Shown piece after piece: positions 3,971 to 60,900 of a stretch of DNA of 64,000 bases. A program made the translations under genes and the position numbers. The stretch is from Apostichopus japonicus (taxonomy: Eukaryota > Echinodermata > Holothuroidea > Aspidochirotida > Stichopodidae): NCBI RefSeq assembly GCF_037975245.1, contig NC_092575.1, forward strand, positions 2,609,001 to 2,673,000, read 5' to 3'. How positions within the stretch are numbered: position 1 is the first letter of the stretch; the number at the start of each line of letters is the position of its first letter. The notes under the pieces are model-generated. The model made no database searches. It was given only the letters and a program-made list of their open reading frames with translations, and was not told where the DNA came from.

Positions 3971-5600
3971 GTAAGTTGAACTTATACAATGATACAACAT
4001 ATACGATATGAAATGGGTTGGAAAGGGCAGTGACCAAGGGTGCGAGGCAAATGTCTTAACTTCAATCCTAATTGGAAAATGACGTCGACCTCATCCCCCC
4101 CCCCCCCCCCCTCTTCGTTCCTTATTCCGCGTTCTGATTAAAAAGTTTAATGATATATTCCATTGCTATACCATGACAAGGACAAAGTCAATGTATGCCT
4201 CAGAAAGCTCTGTTTGATGCCCCTCTTCAAGTATTCAACTAGTACCCTGCCGTCCTTACCCAAATTAAACCTTCTTGGTGTTTGGGATCTAAACTGGCCT
4301 CTCTAAATGCGACATTGACTGATAATTGTGACTTTATATTATTCGAATCATAATATTTCCATGGATTCACGATGGAATGGAACAAACAAAAAACCGTTTT
4401 GCTTACATGTGTATGTTTTCATGTTTTATTTTATTGACAGGACTATAGGGGTTAAGTGATAGCCGGTGTTCATGTATTATGAATTCTTGTATTTGGTATA
4501 CACTGTTCAAGTTGCAGTGCAGTCAAGTTCAGCGCCGTGCATTACATTACAGTACACGACATTACAGTGCAGTACAACACAGTACTGAACAATGAAGTGT
4601 TACACAGTGCAGTACAGTACAGCAGTACATTACGGTACCAGAAATAAAAACGATGGTAGTTTTGAATCATTGTACTAGGTTGCCATATAATTCCACTGAA
4701 ATATTCATGAAGTCATGCTTTCCTTCTTACCTTGATCAAGTTTGACGGCTGATTTGACTTCCACGTTTGTAGAAGAACATCCTCGCTGTGTTAGGTGGAG
4801 GTCAAAGTTCGGCCTAGGTATATAGCTAAATAAGTAATTCACAGTTTGTGAAGTGGGAGGATTCAAACTTTCGGCTGTCTTAGGACTCTGAACAGTTTTT
4901 CATTACTCTTGCTCTTACTCTTGAGTCAGTTAAATCATGCCGATAAAGTTTAGACATCCTTGGGTTTCAAGCAGCTACTTTTCAAGTAATTTCATGTTCT
5001 CTCCTTGTGTTTATGCTCTACTAAACTAAACTACTCATTGTGCTTCATATTATGGATGATTTGTTGTTATAATATTGCTTGTATCAGCTTGTTACCTCTT
5101 GACCTTAAGAAGTGGTTAATCGCCATCTCTGTATTTCCCATTTATCTTCCTTGTCCCCCCCCCCCCCCATCCCCACTTCTATATGTTACAATGTAAGCGC
5201 TGACTCTATTTAAATTCATACTGCTCTCCACCTGCAGATAAACTACAGTCAGGGTTAGCTTGCGCAAACTATTCATGTGCTACATATGTAATGTATTTAA
5301 AGGCAAGTAACCACTAGGGGGAAGGGGGTTCCTTTTGGTTCTACATGCAGCCAGTTGGGATATTCTCCCATGCTAATACCATTCAAAGTATATATATACT
5401 GTGCCCTCGTCCTTCGACATACGGCGAATATGTATGCTTTTATACTATAAATATAATTTTAAATATACAAAGAGAAAGGAAGTGGTCAAAAAAATCTTAA
5501 TATGCTTAACGAGTAGATGCACCCCCCCCCCCCCCCAAAAAAACACAAATGGACTAATATACAAGATCAAATGATTTGAAACATTTAAACATTACAATAC
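3971..5600. other. Non-coding DNA between SLC5 exon remnants
   Basis: I see no coding exon here, though SLC5 genes would have several in this position. The stretch holds poly-C runs (4097-4112, 5155-5168, 5521-5536), a cluster of CAGTACAG-type motifs at 4510-4640 like those filling the Deltex introns, and AT-rich spacer. Confidence 0.6.
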
Positions 5601-7750: not shown

Positions 7751-9244
7751 CTAATCCAGAAATGAATATTCAGATTGGCCAAAATCTTTCAACCACTTGT
7801 GTTTTCCACATGCCTTACAGCTGCCTAGCCAATCAGGTCCATAAGGATCGACTTTTGTAATTAACGGTTCTTTCCTCCAAGCATTGTTTTCCAAATATAG
7901 TAAAAGATCACATGCTTTCTCATCACGACAAAATGGAAAAACTCTTTTATTGGTGTACACCTCAACTTTTCCATCTTTTCTCCATTCATGATATTTTCTA
8001 TAAAGAGTTGCGTTTCCAGCCACTTTCTTAACATATTTGGCAAGATCCTCGATTTTCTCAAAATCGTCTGCGTATATGAAAGAGTTTGGGGGAGCTAATC
8101 GCATGTATTCCGACTTTTTAGCGCCAATTACGATAGGCACAGATTCGTACTGTGCGAGTGCTTTCCAAAATTTCTCCGTAATGTATTCTGAACAACATGT
8201 ATTCTCAAAAGCAAGATAAAATCGATGTGTCCTTAAAATTTTTGATCCTCCGGAGTTACGTGGAATTTTGTGATTGCCACATCCTCCGTACATTTCAATA
8301 TCGATGAATTTTGACAGAAAATAAACAAGTGCCGTTCTGTTCCAGTATGAATGGTGACAATGGCTACTTGCCCAACTAACCGTCGCCACCTCCGGGGACT
8401 TTCCCGTTGTAACGTTAGTTGGAAAGTCTATACTAACGTTGAAAGGAATGTAAGCACCAAATGGTGCGTACACTTCAGATTTACTATGGTAACCAAAAGT
8501 CATGTTGAATTGTAAGTCTTCCAATTCTCTTTTACGGCTAGCAGTAGGCGGAGACGTAAAGGCACTTTCAGGAGTAGAATAGAGCCAAATTTGACGTGGA
8601 TTTCTTTCACGCAGTAGCGTCTGCCAGTGTTTTATAGAGGTAGGTGTAGTAAAGATAAGAACGTCCGCGACTTTACTGAAGTTATCATTCGTGAAACCAT
8701 CTTTAAATGAGATGGTTCTGTTCGTTCCGGGACATTTAACTGTTCGAAATAACCACTTGCTGCGATACTTTGTGGTCACTGCAACCAGTGATACAACTAT
8801 GTCCTTATTGATATCATAAACAGGCTTTCCCTTCTTTACATTTTTATTACCATCACTTCCATCATTTAACGATATTATGTTTGTAATATTTTTACCAATC
8901 TCACCTTTCGAAGTCTTTGCACTAGTCGTGTTATGGACACGTTCAATAACGGTCAACTTATCGATCAAAGAAGTCACATTTTCAACATCCGAATTTCTGA
9001 TCGCTAAATCAACAGTGAATTTATTTAAAATATCCATATTGAGCATATCAAGTCTGCTCGACCTCTTTGGATCCGATATTTCCATTTCCGACCAAACCGG
9101 AGATGATTTATACCGAGGCAGTTTTCCCATTTCCAACGTTGACCTTGCACTTTTCGTGTAGATTCCCATTCCAATGATCATGGAAAAGCATAATAATGCA
9201 ACAAAGATCGACCTACGCTGTGGCACTTGTACTGTATAAAACAT
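7751..9244 (-). CDS. alpha-1,3-fucosyltransferase (GT10 family), copy 2
   Basis: Intronless 497-residue paralogue of the gene at 363-1856 with the same plan: N-terminal anchor (about residues 12-29), long stem, then the GT10 catalytic region with IWLYSTPESA, FNMTFGYHSK, the FENTCC segment, SEYITEKFW and VPIVIG. It is expected to be a Golgi GDP-fucose-dependent enzyme. Differences from copy 1 concentrate in the stem (a one-codon insertion at KKGKPVYD) and in a loop before the donor motif (MYGGCGNHKIPRNSGGSKIL against MYGECGNHQLPRNSEGLDIL), where acceptor preference could differ. The frame is fully open, ends one codon earlier than copy 1, and keeps a TATA run upstream and a poly(A) signal downstream, so this copy looks intact. 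Confidence 0.93.
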   Translation of the reverse strand: MFYTVQVPQRRSIFVALLCFSMIIGMGIYTKSARSTLEMGKLPRYKSSPVWSEMEISDPKRSSRLDMLNMDILNKFTVDLAIRNSDVENVTSLIDKLTVIERVHNTTSAKTSKGEIGKNITNIISLNDGSDGNKNVKKGKPVYDINKDIVVSLVAVTTKYRSKWLFRTVKCPGTNRTISFKDGFTNDNFSKVADVLIFTTPTSIKHWQTLLRERNPRQIWLYSTPESAFTSPPTASRKRELEDLQFNMTFGYHSKSEVYAPFGAYIPFNVSIDFPTNVTTGKSPEVATVSWASSHCHHSYWNRTALVYFLSKFIDIEMYGGCGNHKIPRNSGGSKILRTHRFYLAFENTCCSEYITEKFWKALAQYESVPIVIGAKKSEYMRLAPPNSFIYADDFEKIEDLAKYVKKVAGNATLYRKYHEWRKDGKVEVYTNKRVFPFCRDEKACDLLLYLENNAWRKEPLITKVDPYGPDWLGSCKACGKHKWLKDFGQSEYSFLD

Positions 9245-9396
9245 GTTTGTTTCTTGCTTGTTCTTGATCTCTGGTCATTAATTGTATTTACGTTCAGAAA
9301 ACTATAACTAATTTTACCTCTATTTTACGGTGATCCTAGTAGAACGCTTTGCGACTTCAGTGTCCAGTTGATATACTTATAGGCGTCACAAGACCG

Positions 9397-10500: not shown

Positions 10501-10665
10501 TTTTTTTTTCGTGCCTCTGCAAGCATCACTTTTCTTTGGATGAACCCCAGTCCCTTAATTGCATCGAGACTGTGACTGTGTGATCATCGTCAGGTGTGTA
10601 TCACGATCCCCCTCGAAGGGGAACAGATACTACACACGATCTTAGCCAAAAGGCCGAGAAACGAT
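10501..10665 (-). mobile_element. U2 snRNA-headed retroposon or U2 pseudogene with A-tail
   Basis: Read on the minus strand from 10665, the first 45 bases match the 5' end of U2 snRNA, including TCTCGGCCTTTTGGCTAAG and the branch-point recognition segment GTGTAGTATCTG. Next comes a hairpin (CCCC-TTCG-A-GGGG) closed by GTATC/GATAC, which looks like a rewritten U2 stem-loop IIa. After that the sequence leaves U2: the Sm site and 3' stem-loops are missing. It ends in an A run (T run at 10501-10511 on the plus strand). An snRNA head, unrelated body and A-tail fit a SINE with a U2-derived head or a rearranged U2 retropseudogene. It cannot be a functional U2. Confidence 0.7.
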
Positions 10666-17497: not shown

Positions 17498-40405
<22,908 letters not shown>

Positions 40406-45640: not shown

Positions 45641-48605
45641 AATTTGTGGCCAAATTAATCATCATATTTCTTGTTTACAAAATCTTCCATAGGATAGAGG
45701 GCATCCTCCTGAACAATGAAGCAATCATATACTAAAAACTTACTATAAATATTTTGAAAATAAATTTTAATATGATATACTAATATTCCATAGACTGCCC
45801 CTCTCAACTTCATAGAATATCAAATCTGAGCTCTGGGAATCCATAATGACCATCCTGACTGATATTTGAGAACTTTGATTTTTTGGGCAAAATTGACGAT
45901 TTTGTAAGGCTATACCCTTATGATTTTTTCAATTTTTGGCCAAATTCAGCAATTTCTAAATTCTCTCCAAAATCATCCATAGGATGGAGGCCGTCCTCTT
46001 TGAAGATGAAGCAATCATATAATACGTTTCTATCTTCAAAGAAACTTAATATCAATATTTTGACAATTAATTTTAATATGATATACTTAATACTCCATAG
46101 ACTGCCCCTCTCAACTTCATAGAATATCATATCTGAGCTCTGGGAATCCATAATGACCATCCTGACTGATATTTGAGAACTTTGATTTTTTGGGCAAAAT
46201 TGACGATTTTGTAAGGCTATACCCTTATGATTTTTTCAATTTTTGGCCAAATTAAGCAATTTCTAAATTCTCTCCAAAATCATCCATAGGATGGAGGGCG
46301 TCCTCCTAGAAGATGAAGCCATCATACGTTTCTATCTTCAAAGAAACTTAATATCAATATTGTGAAAATTAATTTTAATATGATATACTTAATATTCCAT
46401 AGACTGCCCCACTCAACTTCATAGAATATCATATCTGAGCCCTAGGAATCCATTAAGACCATCCTGACTGATATTTGAGAACTTTGATTTTTTGGCCGAA
46501 ACTGACGATTTTGTAAGGCTATACCCTTATGATTTTTTCAATTTTTGGCCAAAATCAGCAAAATTTTAATTCTCTCCAAAATCATCCATAGGATGGAGGG
46601 CGTCCTCTTGAAAGATAAAGCAATCATTTAATATGTTTCTATCTTCAAAGAAACTTAATATCAATATTTTGAAAATTAATTTTAATATGATATACTTAAT
46701 ATTCCATAGACTGCCCCTCTCAACTTCATAGAATATCATATCTGAGCTCTCGTAATCATAATGACCATCCTGACTGATATTTGAGAACTTTGATTTTTTG
46801 GCCGAAACTGACGATTTTGTAAGGCTATACCCTTATGATTTTTTCAATTTTTGGCCAAAATCAGCAAATTTTTAATTCTCTCCAAAATCATCCATAGGAT
46901 GGAGGGCGTCCTCTTGGAAGATAAAGCAATCATATAATACGTTTCTATTTTCAAAGAAACGTAATATCAATATTTTGAAAATTAATTTTAATATGATATA
47001 CTTAATATTCCATAGACTGCCCCTCTCAACTTCATAGAATATCATATCTGAGCTTTAGGAATCCATTAAGACCATTCTGACTGATATTTGAGAACTTTGA
47101 TTTTTTGGGCAAAATTGACGATTTTGTAAGGCTATACCCTTATGATTTTTTCAATTTTTGGCCAAAATCAGCAAATTTTTAGTTCTCTCCAAAATCATCC
47201 ATAGGATGGAGGGCGTCCTCTTGGAAGATAAAGCAATCATATAATACGTTTCTATCTTCAAAGAAACTTATTATCAATATTTTGAAAATTAACTTTAATA
47301 TGATATACTTAATATTCCATAGACTGCCCCTCTCAACTTCATAGAATATCATATCTGAGCTCTGGGAATCATAATGACCATCCTGACTGATATTTGGGTA
47401 CTTTGATTTTTTGGCCAAAATTGACGATTTTGTAAGGCTATACCCTTATTGATTTTTTCAATTTTTGGCCAAAAATCAGCAATTTCTAAATTCTCTCCAA
47501 AATCATCCATAGGATGGAGGGCGCCCCATTGAAAGATAAAGCAATCATATTATATGTTTCTATTTTCAAAGAAACTTAATATCAATATTTTGAAAATTAA
47601 CTTGAATATGATATACTTAATATTCCATAGACTGCCCCTCTCAACTTCATAGAATATCATATCTGAGCTCTGGGAATCATAATGACCATCCTGACTGATA
47701 TTTGAGAACTTTTGATATTTTGCCCAAAATTGACAATTTTGTAAAGCTATACCCTTATGATTTTTTCAATTTTTGGCCAAATTCAGCAATTTCTAAATTC
47801 TCTCCAAAATCATCCATAGGATGGAGGGCGCCCCATTGAAAGATAAAGCAATCATTTAATACGTTTTTATTTTCAAAGAAACTTAATATCAATATTTTGA
47901 AAATTAACTTTAATATGATATACTTAATATTCCATAGACTGCCCCTCTCAACTTCATAGAAAATCATATCTGAACTCGAGGAATCCATTTAGACCATCCT
48001 GACTGATATTTGATAACTTTTGATTTTTTGGGCAAAATTGACGATTTTGTAAGGCTATATACCCTTATGATTTTTTCAATTTTTGGCCAAAATCCACAAA
48101 TTTTTAATTCTCTCCAAAATCATTCATAGGATGGAGGGCGTCCTCTTGAAAGATAAAGCAATCATTAAATACGTTTCTATCTTCAAAGAAACTTAATATC
48201 AATATTTTGACAATTAATTTTAATATGATATACTTAATATTCCATAGACTGCCCCTCTCAACTTCATAGAATATCATATCTGAGCTCTGGGAATCCATAA
48301 TGACCATCCTGACTGATATTTGAGAACTTCGATTTTTGGCCGAAATTAAAGATTTTGTAAGGCTATACCCTTATGATTTTTTCAATTTTTGGCCAAAATC
48401 AGCAATTATATTTTTATTCTCTCCAAAATCATCCATAGGATGGCGGGCGTCCTCTTGGAAGTTGAAGCAATCATATTATACATTTCTACTTTCAAAGAAA
48501 CTTAATATCAATATTTTGAAAATTAATTTTAATATGATATACTTAATATTCCAGTCTGCCCCTCTCAACTTTTTGGCCAAAATTGATGATTTTGTAAGGC
48601 TATTG
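45640..48605. repeat. Satellite-like array of ~306-bp units (about 10 copies)
   Basis: Landmark TCCATAGACTGCCCCTCTCA recurs at about 45788, 46093, 46397, 46703, 47010, 47318, 47625, 47930 and 48240, with a decayed copy near 48550. Each unit also holds CTGACTGATATTTGAGAACT, TTGTAAGGCTATACCCTTAT and ATCATCCATAGGATGGAGG. Copies are about 90-95% alike by eye, with small indels. Each unit gives a minus-strand frame of up to 80 codons (containing DMIFYEVERGSLW), never open across units, so coding is unlikely. A further scrap lies at 48695-48745. Confidence 0.95.
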
Positions 48606-54900: not shown

Positions 54901-57900
54901 GATAACAATGTTAAACAGACCATATTCACTAACACAGGCTGGGCATGTACAGTAGTGGGCATTTTACAGAAGTGAAATTTTGCACCCATATCAAAGATTT
55001 TGCATTATGGCCCCCGAGAAAGAAAATCACGATGGATATTGTCCATCTCTCAAAAAATAAACTTTGAAAAAGTTTTGGAGCTCCCAGGAAGTTCTCCTGT
55101 GGGCTTCAATGTCAGATGAAATGTTCTGATGGAGAATGAGCAATGGTGAAAAATTTATTAAAATCATTTGTCTGTTTTTAACATTTCCTGAGACTTTACA
55201 ACCGAGTCCATTGAGAATAACTCAGAATGGAAAATATTAACACATCTGTCAAGACTTTTGTCACCTCATGAATATTAACTAGTTACAAAATACTGATGAG
55301 GGGTTGGGGGGCTTCAGCCACACCCAAAATCAGAAGACATCACTGTCATGAGGGTCCTATGTGGTTTTGCAAAACTTGACAAGCTGCAGTCTCTGACTGC
55401 AGGTCACAATGGTACAGAACGATTTCATTTGTTATTATTAAAGAAGAGATCTATATATCTACATTTATTTAAACTTTCGAATTAAACTAATTACTTTAAG
55501 CACCTTACTTGTGTTTTCTAAATCACATTTTTTTGTTTGGCTGAACTGCACAAGTGGAATCTAAAAACTAGTCAATCACCCAGCGTGTCTGCAGACAAAT
55601 TCAACCTGTGATCGAGCACGTTTGCATGCCTGTGAGCACTGTCACACACTCATGTTTCTATGATCAAAAGATCTATAAACAGTAGTAGATATATGACAGC
55701 ATCCACAGTTAAAATGCTGAAGTGCTTCAATATTGATACCATTCAGTTAAAAAAAGGATCAACAAGGCCCGTTTCCATGTCATTACTAATCAAAACAAAT
55801 CTACACCCCCTCTCGCTCGCCCTTCGTTTCCCTTCACCCCCTCTCGCTCTCCCTTCGTCCCTCTACCAGTTACCCCCAAGCACCCACTCTCCCTCTCCCT
55901 TTGTTCCCCTACACCCCCTCTCCCTCTCCCTTTGTTCCCCTACACCCCCCCTCCCGCTTCCTCTGTTCCCCTACCAGCTATCCCAAAGCCGAAGAAAAAA
56001 TACAGATTGGCAATATTTTTACAGGATCCAAACAACTCACTTGACAAATTTGATGCAAAACTGTGTGAAATATTTCCTAGCAGATGCTAAATTCTCTCTG
56101 ACGACTGGCACTGTTCTGGATATATGAGTGGTGATGGCGTTGACGTACCCACTCTGGTCACCCACGGTCTCTATGCTTGACCAATTGACCTAAAGAGAGA
56201 CGATAGAGAAGAGTCACCTCGTTGATATTTACTTTAAGCTTAAAGAACCCTTCAGGGAGAACGACACAGTATTATGCAGTCAAAAAAACAAACATTACAA
56301 AAATATCAACAACAAAAAATCAAAACCCCCCCAAAAAAAAAAATCAAAAATATATAAAGAAATAAATATAAAAAATAAATAATAATAAATAAATAAATAA
56401 AAACAAAACAAACAAGGGTAGAAACTTCGCACAAATTAACAAATCCCAGAGTAACTTGATATGCCATAATTGTATATGATGTCACCGACCATTGACATGC
56501 TAGACTTTATCTCAATTTGATAGAATTTCAAATCTATTAGTCTATTTGTGGGAATCCATGATTGTCACAGTTGCGCAAAGCAAGAGTGGAGAGAAAAAAT
56601 TATTGAGAATAAATAAGAGGAACTTTAAGTTGTTTTTATTAACAAGCGCTTTTTAAACTAAACTTGTAAATTTAGTGTCATTGCTCATATAAAAATGGCA
56701 AGTTAGTCTTGACCCTTCATTCCCCCTTCCACAAACTCCCCCCCCCATCCCCACCCAACAACCCTTAACCAACCATTGTCCCACAGGTGAGATATTGGTC
56801 TTGTTTTCATTTAACCTAGTAACACCACAACAAAATACCATTCTTCACATGAGTACAATTCGCATCAAAACATCGTGTACCCCAAAAAACTTGAAGGTAA
56901 AGAAAATGGACTAGGAGATCTGAGAATTGGAGTCAGATCGACGGAGAGGGATCTAAGACGAAATATCTTGCAAGATACTGTATTTGTTGAAATGTTTGAA
57001 CAAAAGAATGAAATAAATCTGTGATCTTATCTTTTTTCTCTGTTGGCTTAAAGAATGTGAAGACTCGCGCAAAAAGCAACGTCTAATGCTGGTAATCTGA
57101 CCTAGTTTCTAATGAGGTGTAACAGAAGTGTAAGACACCACCATCGATCCCAGAAAATATGCACACAGCTTGCTACCTTCGGTAATTAGACACTAGTGTA
57201 CAGTCAATACATACAGCTGCGGTCAATACCCACAGGACAGTGTACAAACCATACAACGATGGATTTCTCAGGTCCAGCTGAAGATAACAAGGTATCAGGT
57301 TTCATTATTGTCTGCATTTTGTAGCGACAAGCAGAAAATTTCACTTGCAAGCAACGGAAAGTTAACATTTTCAGAGTGCGGCATGCGGTTTGGGGCGAGT
57401 CTTCAATGCCTTTAAATAAAATTTACCTTGTTCATGGCTGTCATAGCTGGTTCACAAGCTGATTCTAAATCTTGAACCAAGAGTTGAATACAATTTGATA
57501 TTACTCTACGAAAAGAAGAAGAAGAGGAAGAAAACGGGAGGTAAAAAGAAACAAGACACCTTCTCCTTATGGAAACAGAATCATTTGTTATCCACCTTCA
57601 GGAAGATGATATTAAGCTCAAAAAACAATAAAAATTAAAAATACTTAGGAAATGTTACTTTAACATAAAGTCTAATGTTTGAATCGACTCAACCTTGATC
57701 TGGTTTTACAATAAAAAACAATAAAAATTACAAAAAACAATAAAAATTAAAAATACTTAGGAAATGTTACTTTAACATAAAGTCTAATGTTTGAATCGAC
57801 TCAACCTTGATCTGGTTTTACAGCATGGTGTCAGCAGAATTACAGGCCTAGAATCTCACAAACTTATTGACTTGTTTAGAAAAAGGAGGTGTTTCATAAA

Positions 57901-60900
57901 TCTATTGGCTTAAATCATGTTTTCATGAATTAAAATACATCTCAGTCACTGTACAGGCTTTTGAGAGCAGCCCAATAGTATCTGCTAATAATAAGCAGTA
58001 ACAAGGGGCTTATGCTAGGTATCTGACATTTATCACAAAATAACAAAGAAGCTGCAACACCAAATAACTCACTCATGAAATACATCAAATAACTCACCCA
58101 TTAAATACATCAAATAACTCACCCATGAAGTACACCAAACAACTCACTCATTAAATACATCAAATAACTCACCCATAAACTACACCAAATAACTCACCCT
58201 TGAAATACATCAAATAACTCACCTATAAAATACACCAAATAACTCACCCATGAAATACATCAAATAACTCACCAATGAAATACATCAAATATCTCACCCA
58301 TGAAATACATCAAATTACTCACCCATGAAATTCACCAAATAGCTCACACATGTAATACATCAAATAACTCACACATGAAATACACCAAATAACTCACCCA
58401 TGACATTACACCAAATAACTCAATCCATGAAATACATCAAATAACTCACCTATGAAGTACACCAAACAACTCACTCATTAAATACATTAAATAACTCACC
58501 CATGAAATTCACCAAATAACTCATACATGTAATACATCAAATAACTCACCTATAAAATACACCAAATAACTCACCCATGAAATACATCAAATAACTCACC
58601 AATGAAATACATCAAATATCTCACCCATGAAATACATCAAATTACTCACCCATGAAATTCACCAAATAGCTCACACATGTAATACATCAAATAACTCACA
58701 CATGAAATACACCAAATAACTCACCCATGACATTACACCAAATAACTCACCCATGAAATACATCTACTTCTCCACTCAGAGATATTTGTTCTCGTAAACT
58801 TGAATCTATTTTCTCCTTGAGTTTTTCTTCCAGCTGAAAGAATGAAGAAGCAGTAGATTTATTTTACAGGACCATTCTAAAATTATATGCAGGTGTAGGG
58901 CACACTATACCTGTTGTGTGGTATCCAGGCAGTCAATGGGGGAATAACATGGAGTGACTATGCAGGTGTAGGGCACACTATACCTGTTGTGTGGTGTCCA
59001 GGCAGTCAATGGGGGAATTACATGGAGTGACTATGCAGGTGTAGGGCACACTATACCTGTTGTGTGGTGTCCAGGCAGTCAATGGGGGAATTACATGGAG
59101 TGACTATGCAGATGTAGGGAACACTATACCTGTTGTGTGGTATCCAGGCAGTCAATGGGGGAATTACATGGAGTGACTATGCAGGTGTAGGGCACACTAT
59201 ACCTGTTGTGTGGTATCCAGGCAGTCAATGGGGGAATTACATGGAGTGACTATGCAGGTGTAGGGCACACTATAACCGGTTGTGTGGTATCCAGGCAGTC
59301 AATGGGGGAATAACATGGAGTGAATAACAGGTGTAGGGCACTCTATACCTGTTGTGTGGTGTCCAGGCAGTCAATGGGGGAATAACATGGAGTGAATAAC
59401 AGGTGTAGGGCACTCTATACCTGTTGTGTGGTATCCAGGCAGTCAATGGGGGTATTACATGGAGTGACTATGCAGGTGTAGAGCACACTATACCTGTTGT
59501 GTGGTGTCCAGGCAGTCAATGGGGGAATAACATGGAGTGAATAACAGGTGTAGGGCACTCTATACCTGTTGTGTGGTATCTAGGCAATCAATGGGGGAAT
59601 TACATGGAGTGACTATGCAGGTGATGGACACACTATACCTGTTGTGTGGTATCCAGGCAGTATTCAGCCGTGACCAGAATGCTACAGACTCTGTACTGCT
59701 CATCTGCTGTAAACTTTGGCACCTCGCTGGAGCTCTCCTTCAGACCCTCTTTAAGTAACGTCGAAAAATTCAAACTGGTCGGCATCGGCGTTTGAGATCT
59801 GTGAATGAGGAAGAACAATGAGAACTAACATATCAAGAAGAAGTGGAGGTAAAAATTGGGTGGGTGGGGGGGTGGGTGGGGGGGGACTTGTAAGAATTGT
59901 TTCAGCTCAAAATAATCTCATTTATACGGTGATCATAATTCAAAGTTGACTTGTGAAAGTTCAGCCTGACTTATGTGATATAAATATAAAATATCATTAT
60001 TTCTTATGAAAATTCTGTTTAATTGAAGAGAAAATATATCAAATTCTTGATAAGGGAGAGCACTGCAGGTCAAGTCAGAAACTCGATACAAAATATTCTT
60101 TACACAAAGTAATCGAATGGTACTTCATAAAAAAAGAAGAAAAAAATGGAAACTATCTTTCAAGAAGAAAAATATTTGACAGTAAGCCTCTGAAGAAGGT
60201 CCTGCTAGGATCTAAACGTCAGATCCTCTGGCTTATATATTTTTACCTACAACACAAACAAATATATTTTACAGACACAAACACGAATATATTTTAACGA
60301 CACGAGCACAAACATATTTAACCTACACAGGCTGCAAGAGATAACCTTCAGGGAGTTAGCAGGGTAGATTTGAATTCGTTTGAGATAGACACACAAGTTT
60401 GCAAAAGACTGTTACAATTTCAAAAGTTGTGACTTACTTTGGGAGGTTTCCACTGAGTAATCTGTTGGCGTATTCTCGGAGGTATTTCTGGAATGATGCT
60501 GTCAGGGAGAGGAGAGGTTGTCCGGTGCTGAGCTGGGAACACTGTACCATACACTTCTTGTAGAAGACAAAGAGATCCGCACAGCTGGGGAGTACCGCCC
60601 CGCCCTCCTCCGCCTGGATCGGGGGCGGACCCTGCGTGCGGAAATCGTCCATGAACCTCTGGATAAGGTCCGATAGATTCCTGAGGAGTCGAAGAAAAGA
60701 TGGGATGAGACGACGGGAGGACAGTGACGGGACTGACCCTTTAAATTTTATGAAAGATTTAACGGTCGGAAGAGGCGGTAAAACATGACGAGGGAGAAAG
60801 ATGTGTCTGAGATGGTGAAGGATAACATGTCAGTACAAATAATAATAATCATAATAAATGAGACTTATATAGTGCCAAATCAGTAAACAAAAGTCACTGC

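Follow-up and report, generated by a model that had tools for sequence, protein, structure and literature searches.

Why does an intron consist almost entirely of repeated copies of its own 5' splice site? The question is raised by a VPS53 gene in a 64,000-nucleotide stretch of the Apostichopus japonicus genome (the window, in what follows). Thirteen recognised exons on the minus strand form one open frame of 590 amino acids, the 5' part of the gene lying beyond the window, and the product carries the Pfam domains Vps53_N (E 1.3e-59) and VPS53_C. The closest VPS53 proteins were from a sea cucumber and from other echinoderms, and the predicted protein fits the sea cucumber A. japonicus: its tabulated identity to a VPS53 entry of this species was 100% over 89% of the query, the printed sequences differing at one exon G residue (R/Q) and at the C-terminal end of the entry. 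A full-length VPS53 protein with 89% identity, from a different species that may be without the arrays described below, had normal joins at junctions F and G; it came from a contig of 2567 bases, a length indicating that this contig was spliced. Two A. japonicus VPS53 entries (P0002 and P0010) are associated with public contigs measuring 757,360 and 774,547 bases; these may represent two haplotypes and could supply array copy numbers for further alleles.

Intron F opens with an array in which Tandem Repeats Finder identified a period of 73, with 10.7 copies, 93% matches and a score of 1333 (Table 1). It had been proposed in the original prediction that the 73-bp unit comprises the last 23 bases of exon F together with the donor (CAG|GTATAG), and that the junction at 59639 is followed by ten more near-identical copies. 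The repeat and unit alignment bore out this structure, with exon F ending CAACAG|GTATAG and the further copies at +73 to +728: CAG|GTATAG is exact in nine of the ten, and the remaining variant copy, with its donor at 59276, reads CCG|GTTATA. The array was also said almost to fill the 805-bp intron, of which it does occupy 753 bp. The complete units display 86–99% pairwise identity, and the mean unit identity is 0.916 and 0.901 for the first two and 0.922–0.953 for the remaining eight, a small difference. Sampling of 500 introns with matching first-order composition yielded no copy of the junction F 24-mer at up to four mismatches, which excludes chance as the source of array F. Without the 728 bp of extra copies, intron F would measure 77 bp, other introns ranging from 424 to 1413 bp; if it was ever that short, a 73-bp unit could hardly have missed a junction.

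The next intron, overlooked in the original prediction, likewise begins with its own donor-seeded array (period 25, 28.2 copies, score 1004, Tandem Repeats Finder). Its unit consists of about 14–18 exon bases plus GTGAGT, and the junction G 24-mer was also absent from 500 sampled introns of like composition. The order of units G01–G08 is repeated as G14–G21, 327 bp further on, and 226 of the 230 bases compared are identical, indicating that array G grew partly via block duplication; within one assembly, this duplication points indirectly to turnover. Every copy of junction F or G that was detected is located downstream, which leaves the upstream exon end and its donor unchanged.

Table 1. Coordinates of the VPS53 junctions and donor arrays in the window, and donor-seeded arrays at Pfam-matched exons elsewhere in the genome
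Feature	Positions	Strand	Description
Exon F	59639..59798	-	160 bp; contributes its final 23 bases (59661-59639) to the 73-bp unit
Donor F	59637..59638	-	True GT (CAG|GTATAG); sole donor preserving the 590-aa frame at F
Intron F	58834..59638	-	805 bp, phase 0
Array F	58886..59661	-	Junction unit and ten further copies, the last incomplete (Tandem Repeats Finder)
In-frame TAG	59633..59635	-	Second codon of intron F; met on any F decoy use
Exon G	58751..58833	-	83 bp; sits between arrays F and G
Donor G	58749..58750	-	True GT (TGG|GTGAGT)
Intron G	57506..58750	-	1245 bp, phase 2
Array G	58057..58764	-	Junction unit and 27 further units, 25 keeping GT; includes the 327-bp block duplication
In-frame TGA	58747..58749	-	GG|G TGA; met on any G decoy use
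Exon H	57427..57505	-	Next downstream exon
L032			Donor-seeded array at Pfam-matched exon (Saf4_Yju2)
L035			Donor-seeded array at Pfam-matched exon (TIL)
L038			Donor-seeded array at Pfam-matched exon (Glyco_transf_21)
L040			Donor-seeded array at Pfam-matched exon (Y_phosphatase)
L044 and near-identical paralogue L045			Donor-seeded arrays at Pfam-matched exons (Aa_trans)

Echinoderm VPS53 proteins conserve the residues encoded by the exon ends of the F and G units. The repeat was thus derived from the exon, and the converse, a repeat older than the exon, was ruled out. We consider it probable that the arrays result from the neutral growth of a minisatellite that took in the donor, the first copy being the one used, with nearly neutral consequences. 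The first step would have been a tandem duplication across the exon-intron junction, after which slippage or unequal exchange would have amplified the unit in the downstream direction. The duplication would cost little, because the upstream copy keeps the exon end and the donor intact. The units differ among themselves and array G contains a block duplication, as expected of minisatellite turnover.

Two other origins were considered. Repeated junctions could have been created by misassembly, and one amphioxus array of this type was described as aberrantly assembled in a draft genome in the accessible text of PMC3087553, but the complete F units differ by 1–14% in a patterned manner, the A. japonicus genome is in 35 contigs and the same anatomy is found at other genes, rendering an artefact very unlikely. 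Alternatively, the intron itself may have been born from a tandem duplication, according to the AG|GT gain model that the same source proposes for amphioxus, and the units here do carry AG|GT. Both the AGGT tandem-duplication mode of intron gain (PMC4974935) and the internal tandem repeats of human genes (PMC2812944), as far as the available portions of these reports describe them, resemble the VPS53 arrays in that the duplication involves splice-site sequence. However, neither acceptor (tttcag|CTGG for F) is a copy of the unit, which places the growth of the array within an intron already present, and unrelated sequence separates the array from the acceptor; intron birth is therefore scarcely credible.

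If minisatellite growth is the origin, which donor would be used? At both F and G, the 590-aa frame is obtained from the first donors only. Reading through into intron F gives TTQQV*, in agreement with the earlier statement that, in phase 0 and with GTA TAG following, the use of a decoy introduces an in-frame stop as the second extra codon. The upstream donor would be favoured as the one closest to the 3' splice site of its exon, under exon definition, and as the first transcribed. Minigenes that carried two identical donors and had flanking introns of 365 nt, under exon definition, were spliced only at the upstream donor (PMC9225289, in the part of the article available), which suggests that the decoys are silent for the most part. 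According to the same source, short introns favour the downstream of two identical donors; the introns flanking exons F and G are 639, 805 and 1245 bp long, and with surrounding introns of this size the first donor should win at both under exon definition. Tethering of U1 to the polymerase, with retention of the first-made donor, would favour the same choice (PMC8316553, accessible sections). The suggestion in the original prediction that the array may be a harmless by-product of slippage is the best-supported reading.

The alternative in which the arrays act as a rheostat, with copy-dependent use of decoys leading to a stop and to degradation, such that array length sets the level of VPS53, has several observations in its favour. 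GT is preserved in 25 of the 27 further G units, several of which equal or exceed the true donor in strength: TAG|GTGAGT decoys at +201, +301 and +528 score 10.6, versus 8.4 for the true donor, on a donor matrix. Stops follow at once in both introns. Repeat donors can also be used, as in the human IFI6 gene (PMC4526556, in part). The stronger donor was dominant in 86% of human donor pairs surveyed (PMC9225289, as excerpted); this and the G decoys that outscore the true donor count against the neutral reading, and some leakage to decoys at exon G is plausible. Nevertheless, the rheostat is unlikely: only the upstream of two identical donors was used in exon-defined minigenes (PMC9225289), the amphioxus arrays are reported to be silent in the available text of PMC3087553 and PMC3902484, and arrays strike unrelated genes, which suggests that they have no shared regulatory purpose. 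With neutral growth, any use of a decoy would lead to a stop within two codons and probably to destruction of the mRNA by nonsense-mediated decay (NMD), if NMD is assumed to operate, and leakage would lower the yield a little without creating a new protein. A function for the arrays is neither needed nor excluded.

A second functional proposal treats the array as a landing pad for U1, the copies recruiting U1 against premature polyadenylation, aiding splicing or serving as a U1 sponge. U1 is a suppressor of intronic polyadenylation, and most units are predicted to pair with U1 about as well as the true donor does. However, introns of 0.8–1.2 kb hardly need such protection and ten sister VPS53 introns have no arrays. 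The abundance of U1 in the nucleus makes 37 further units negligible, and so many units on one pre-mRNA cannot titrate it. On this stoichiometry, the sponge put forward in the original prediction was rejected, and there is very little likelihood that the arrays serve as a landing pad in any of these forms.

Arrays of this kind have precedents. The minisatellite of human IFI6 (6-16, G1P3) reportedly contains multiple splice donors, as described by Turri et al. in 1995. In amphioxus, tandem duplications of exon-intron boundaries, known as mirages, are found in Adh genes (Adh3) and the globin genes BflGb6 and BflGb9 (PMC3087553), with TnC and PGBD5 as further cases (PMC3902484); these and the following statements are taken from the accessible parts of the two reports. 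As in the mirages, the VPS53 units span an exon-intron boundary (with 23 exon bases in F and about 14–18 in G), they are of minisatellite size (73 and 25 bp, within the 10–160 bp reported in PMC3087553), and many of them retain splice signals. The VPS53 arrays differ in belonging to a sea cucumber rather than a lancelet, in occupying two adjacent introns of one gene, and in involving only the donor side, whereas amphioxus includes acceptor-side cases. In addition, splicing was reported for amphioxus, and said to be undisturbed (PMC3087553, PMC3902484), whereas in VPS53 it is predicted from the sequence, the functional frame needing the first donor. Two further traits considered for mirages are an escape of edge units from homogenisation, to which the small difference between the first two units of F and the others relates, and length instability between alleles or somatic cells, to which the turnover suggested by the array G block duplication relates. 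Cephalochordates are the group in which mirages were described, which is not a defining criterion. In IFI6, two downstream repeat units of the minisatellite serve as donors (PMC4526556, partial text), which counts against a neutral reading. The VPS53 arrays are similar in offering tandem donors downstream of an exon (nine of ten further donors kept in F, 25 of 27 in G), but the downstream units of IFI6 give isoforms, whereas an in-frame stop precedes the first decoy at both F and G. The original prediction holds for the anatomy, the frame and the stop, with the slippage by-product as its best-supported interpretation, but not for the U1 sponge or for the view that such arrays were undescribed as a class, since the amphioxus mirages (PMC3087553, PMC3902484) and IFI6 (PMC4526556), even in the portions available, precede it. 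Literature searches combining sea cucumber minisatellites with introns, or tandem repeats with splice sites, listed no account of such arrays, subscription papers being mostly outside their scope; as far as the literature searched shows, these are mirages in a new phylum.

We compared the donors of the window with its background of repeats. Local copies within 3 kb were found for two of 20 donors (12 from VPS53 and eight from a deltex gene), all within 0.75 kb, and for none of 21 acceptors. Among 1500 random window positions, 218 had a copy within 1.5 kb; the window is thus rich in repeats and its donors are struck at about the background rate. There was no repeat enrichment at window donors relative to random positions, a result counting against an attraction to donors. 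The presence of arrays in the adjacent introns F and G would be uncommon by chance alone, although the window was chosen for it, and this counts against the neutral reading. One candidate third mirage, a repeat at 30997–32222 (80-bp unit, 15.6 copies) in an intron of the deltex-like gene, was rejected: its unit carries ATG|GTATGT / ATGGTATGT, but it lies mid-intron, between the deltex exons at 26797–26873 and 34019–34171. A 307-bp tandem array of 9.2 copies (45736–48571) lies between the deltex and VPS53 genes.

Recurrence was investigated in the genome (671.6 Mb, 35 contigs) with patterns of three AGGTRAGT motifs at periods of 16–46 bp and 47–77 bp, arrays being chosen regardless of genes. 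Among the matches listed, there were 12 distinct arrays at 16–46 bp (contigs C1, C2 and the start of C3) and seven new ones at 47–77 bp (C1 and C2), and these 19, each containing at least three strong donor motifs, were fetched. In six of the 19, an open frame with a Pfam match exceeding the curated cutoff runs up to the first donor copy and ends there (Table 1). When the longest ORF of each flank was taken blindly, Pfam matches were obtained for 6/19 5' flanks and 0/19 3' flanks (P 0.010; treating the paralogues L044 and L045 as a single locus, 0.023). On our own reading, four further loci without Pfam matches are exon-like in frame and splice signals (L039, which presumably resembles serine palmitoyltransferase, L041, L047 and L050), three are ambiguous as to junction status (L033, L043 and L048) and six are not junction arrays (L034, L036, L037, L042, L046 and L049). 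The six arrays at Pfam exon ends and the four exon-like loci indicate that mirages recur in this echinoderm.

There was no excess of donor motifs over backward motifs, a further point against an attraction to donors: the two period-range patterns gave 680 versus 687 and 761 versus 714 matches, and the strict motif AAGGTAAGT gave 27 versus 25, its 27 matches falling in seven arrays on contigs 2, 3, 5, 15 and 21. These counts are of overlapping units, not arrays, and are therefore dominated by long arrays. A general test of 55 arrays, from the window and the 19 fetched loci, revealed no further clear mirage by eye; it found both VPS53 arrays, missed those of L040 and L047, and added noisy candidates. 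From 12 arrays in about 54 Mb, a small sample, our guess would be ~100 strict-motif arrays genome-wide, not all of them mirages. Donor-seeded arrays probably constitute a recurrent, genome-wide class without function, perhaps comprising some 100 loci or more. An in-frame stop precedes the first decoy in 10 of 12 arrays (F, G and ten genome loci, exon frames being assumed for four of these loci). The exceptions are L041 (33-bp unit, near 5206) and L050 (51-bp unit, near 4739; both positions in reverse-complement coordinates), whose unit lengths are divisible by three; provided that these exons are genuine, the use of decoys there could insert extra peptide units. It is doubtful that, in some genes, donor copy number sets the productive share of mRNA or, as in L041 and L050, adds variable peptide units.

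The repeated occurrence of mirages in an echinoderm suggests that they are not a lancelet oddity. With ten to forty near-identical donors per intron, they constitute a natural experiment on 5' splice site choice, in which the nearest donor to the exon, the first transcribed and the strongest could be separated as rules, copy number providing a built-in dose. For automatic gene prediction they represent a pitfall, as every unit carries a plausible exon end.

A corresponding class of acceptor-seeded arrays was rejected. Three TTTTCAG motifs gave 620 + 817 matches, versus 113 + 125 for the backward control, but most of these, among the matches with letters shown, belong to a single 26-bp repeat, often in opposite-facing pairs. 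This repeat, beginning TTTTCAGTCCGAAAATG, forms short arrays on contigs C1–C3, frequently in opposite-facing pairs some 0.5–3.5 kb apart, and probably represents the ends of a mobile element. Elsewhere in the window, two similar intronless fucosyltransferase-like genes (Glyco_transf_10) are located at 366–1889 and 7754–9274 on the minus strand. A U2 snRNA match on the same strand (10578–10665) is probably a fragment, covering 88 bases of a 192-position model at 46.4 bits, against a cutoff of 46 bits, and ARAGORN identified a 93-base tRNA-Gln (anticodon ttg) at 27141–27233 on the plus strand.
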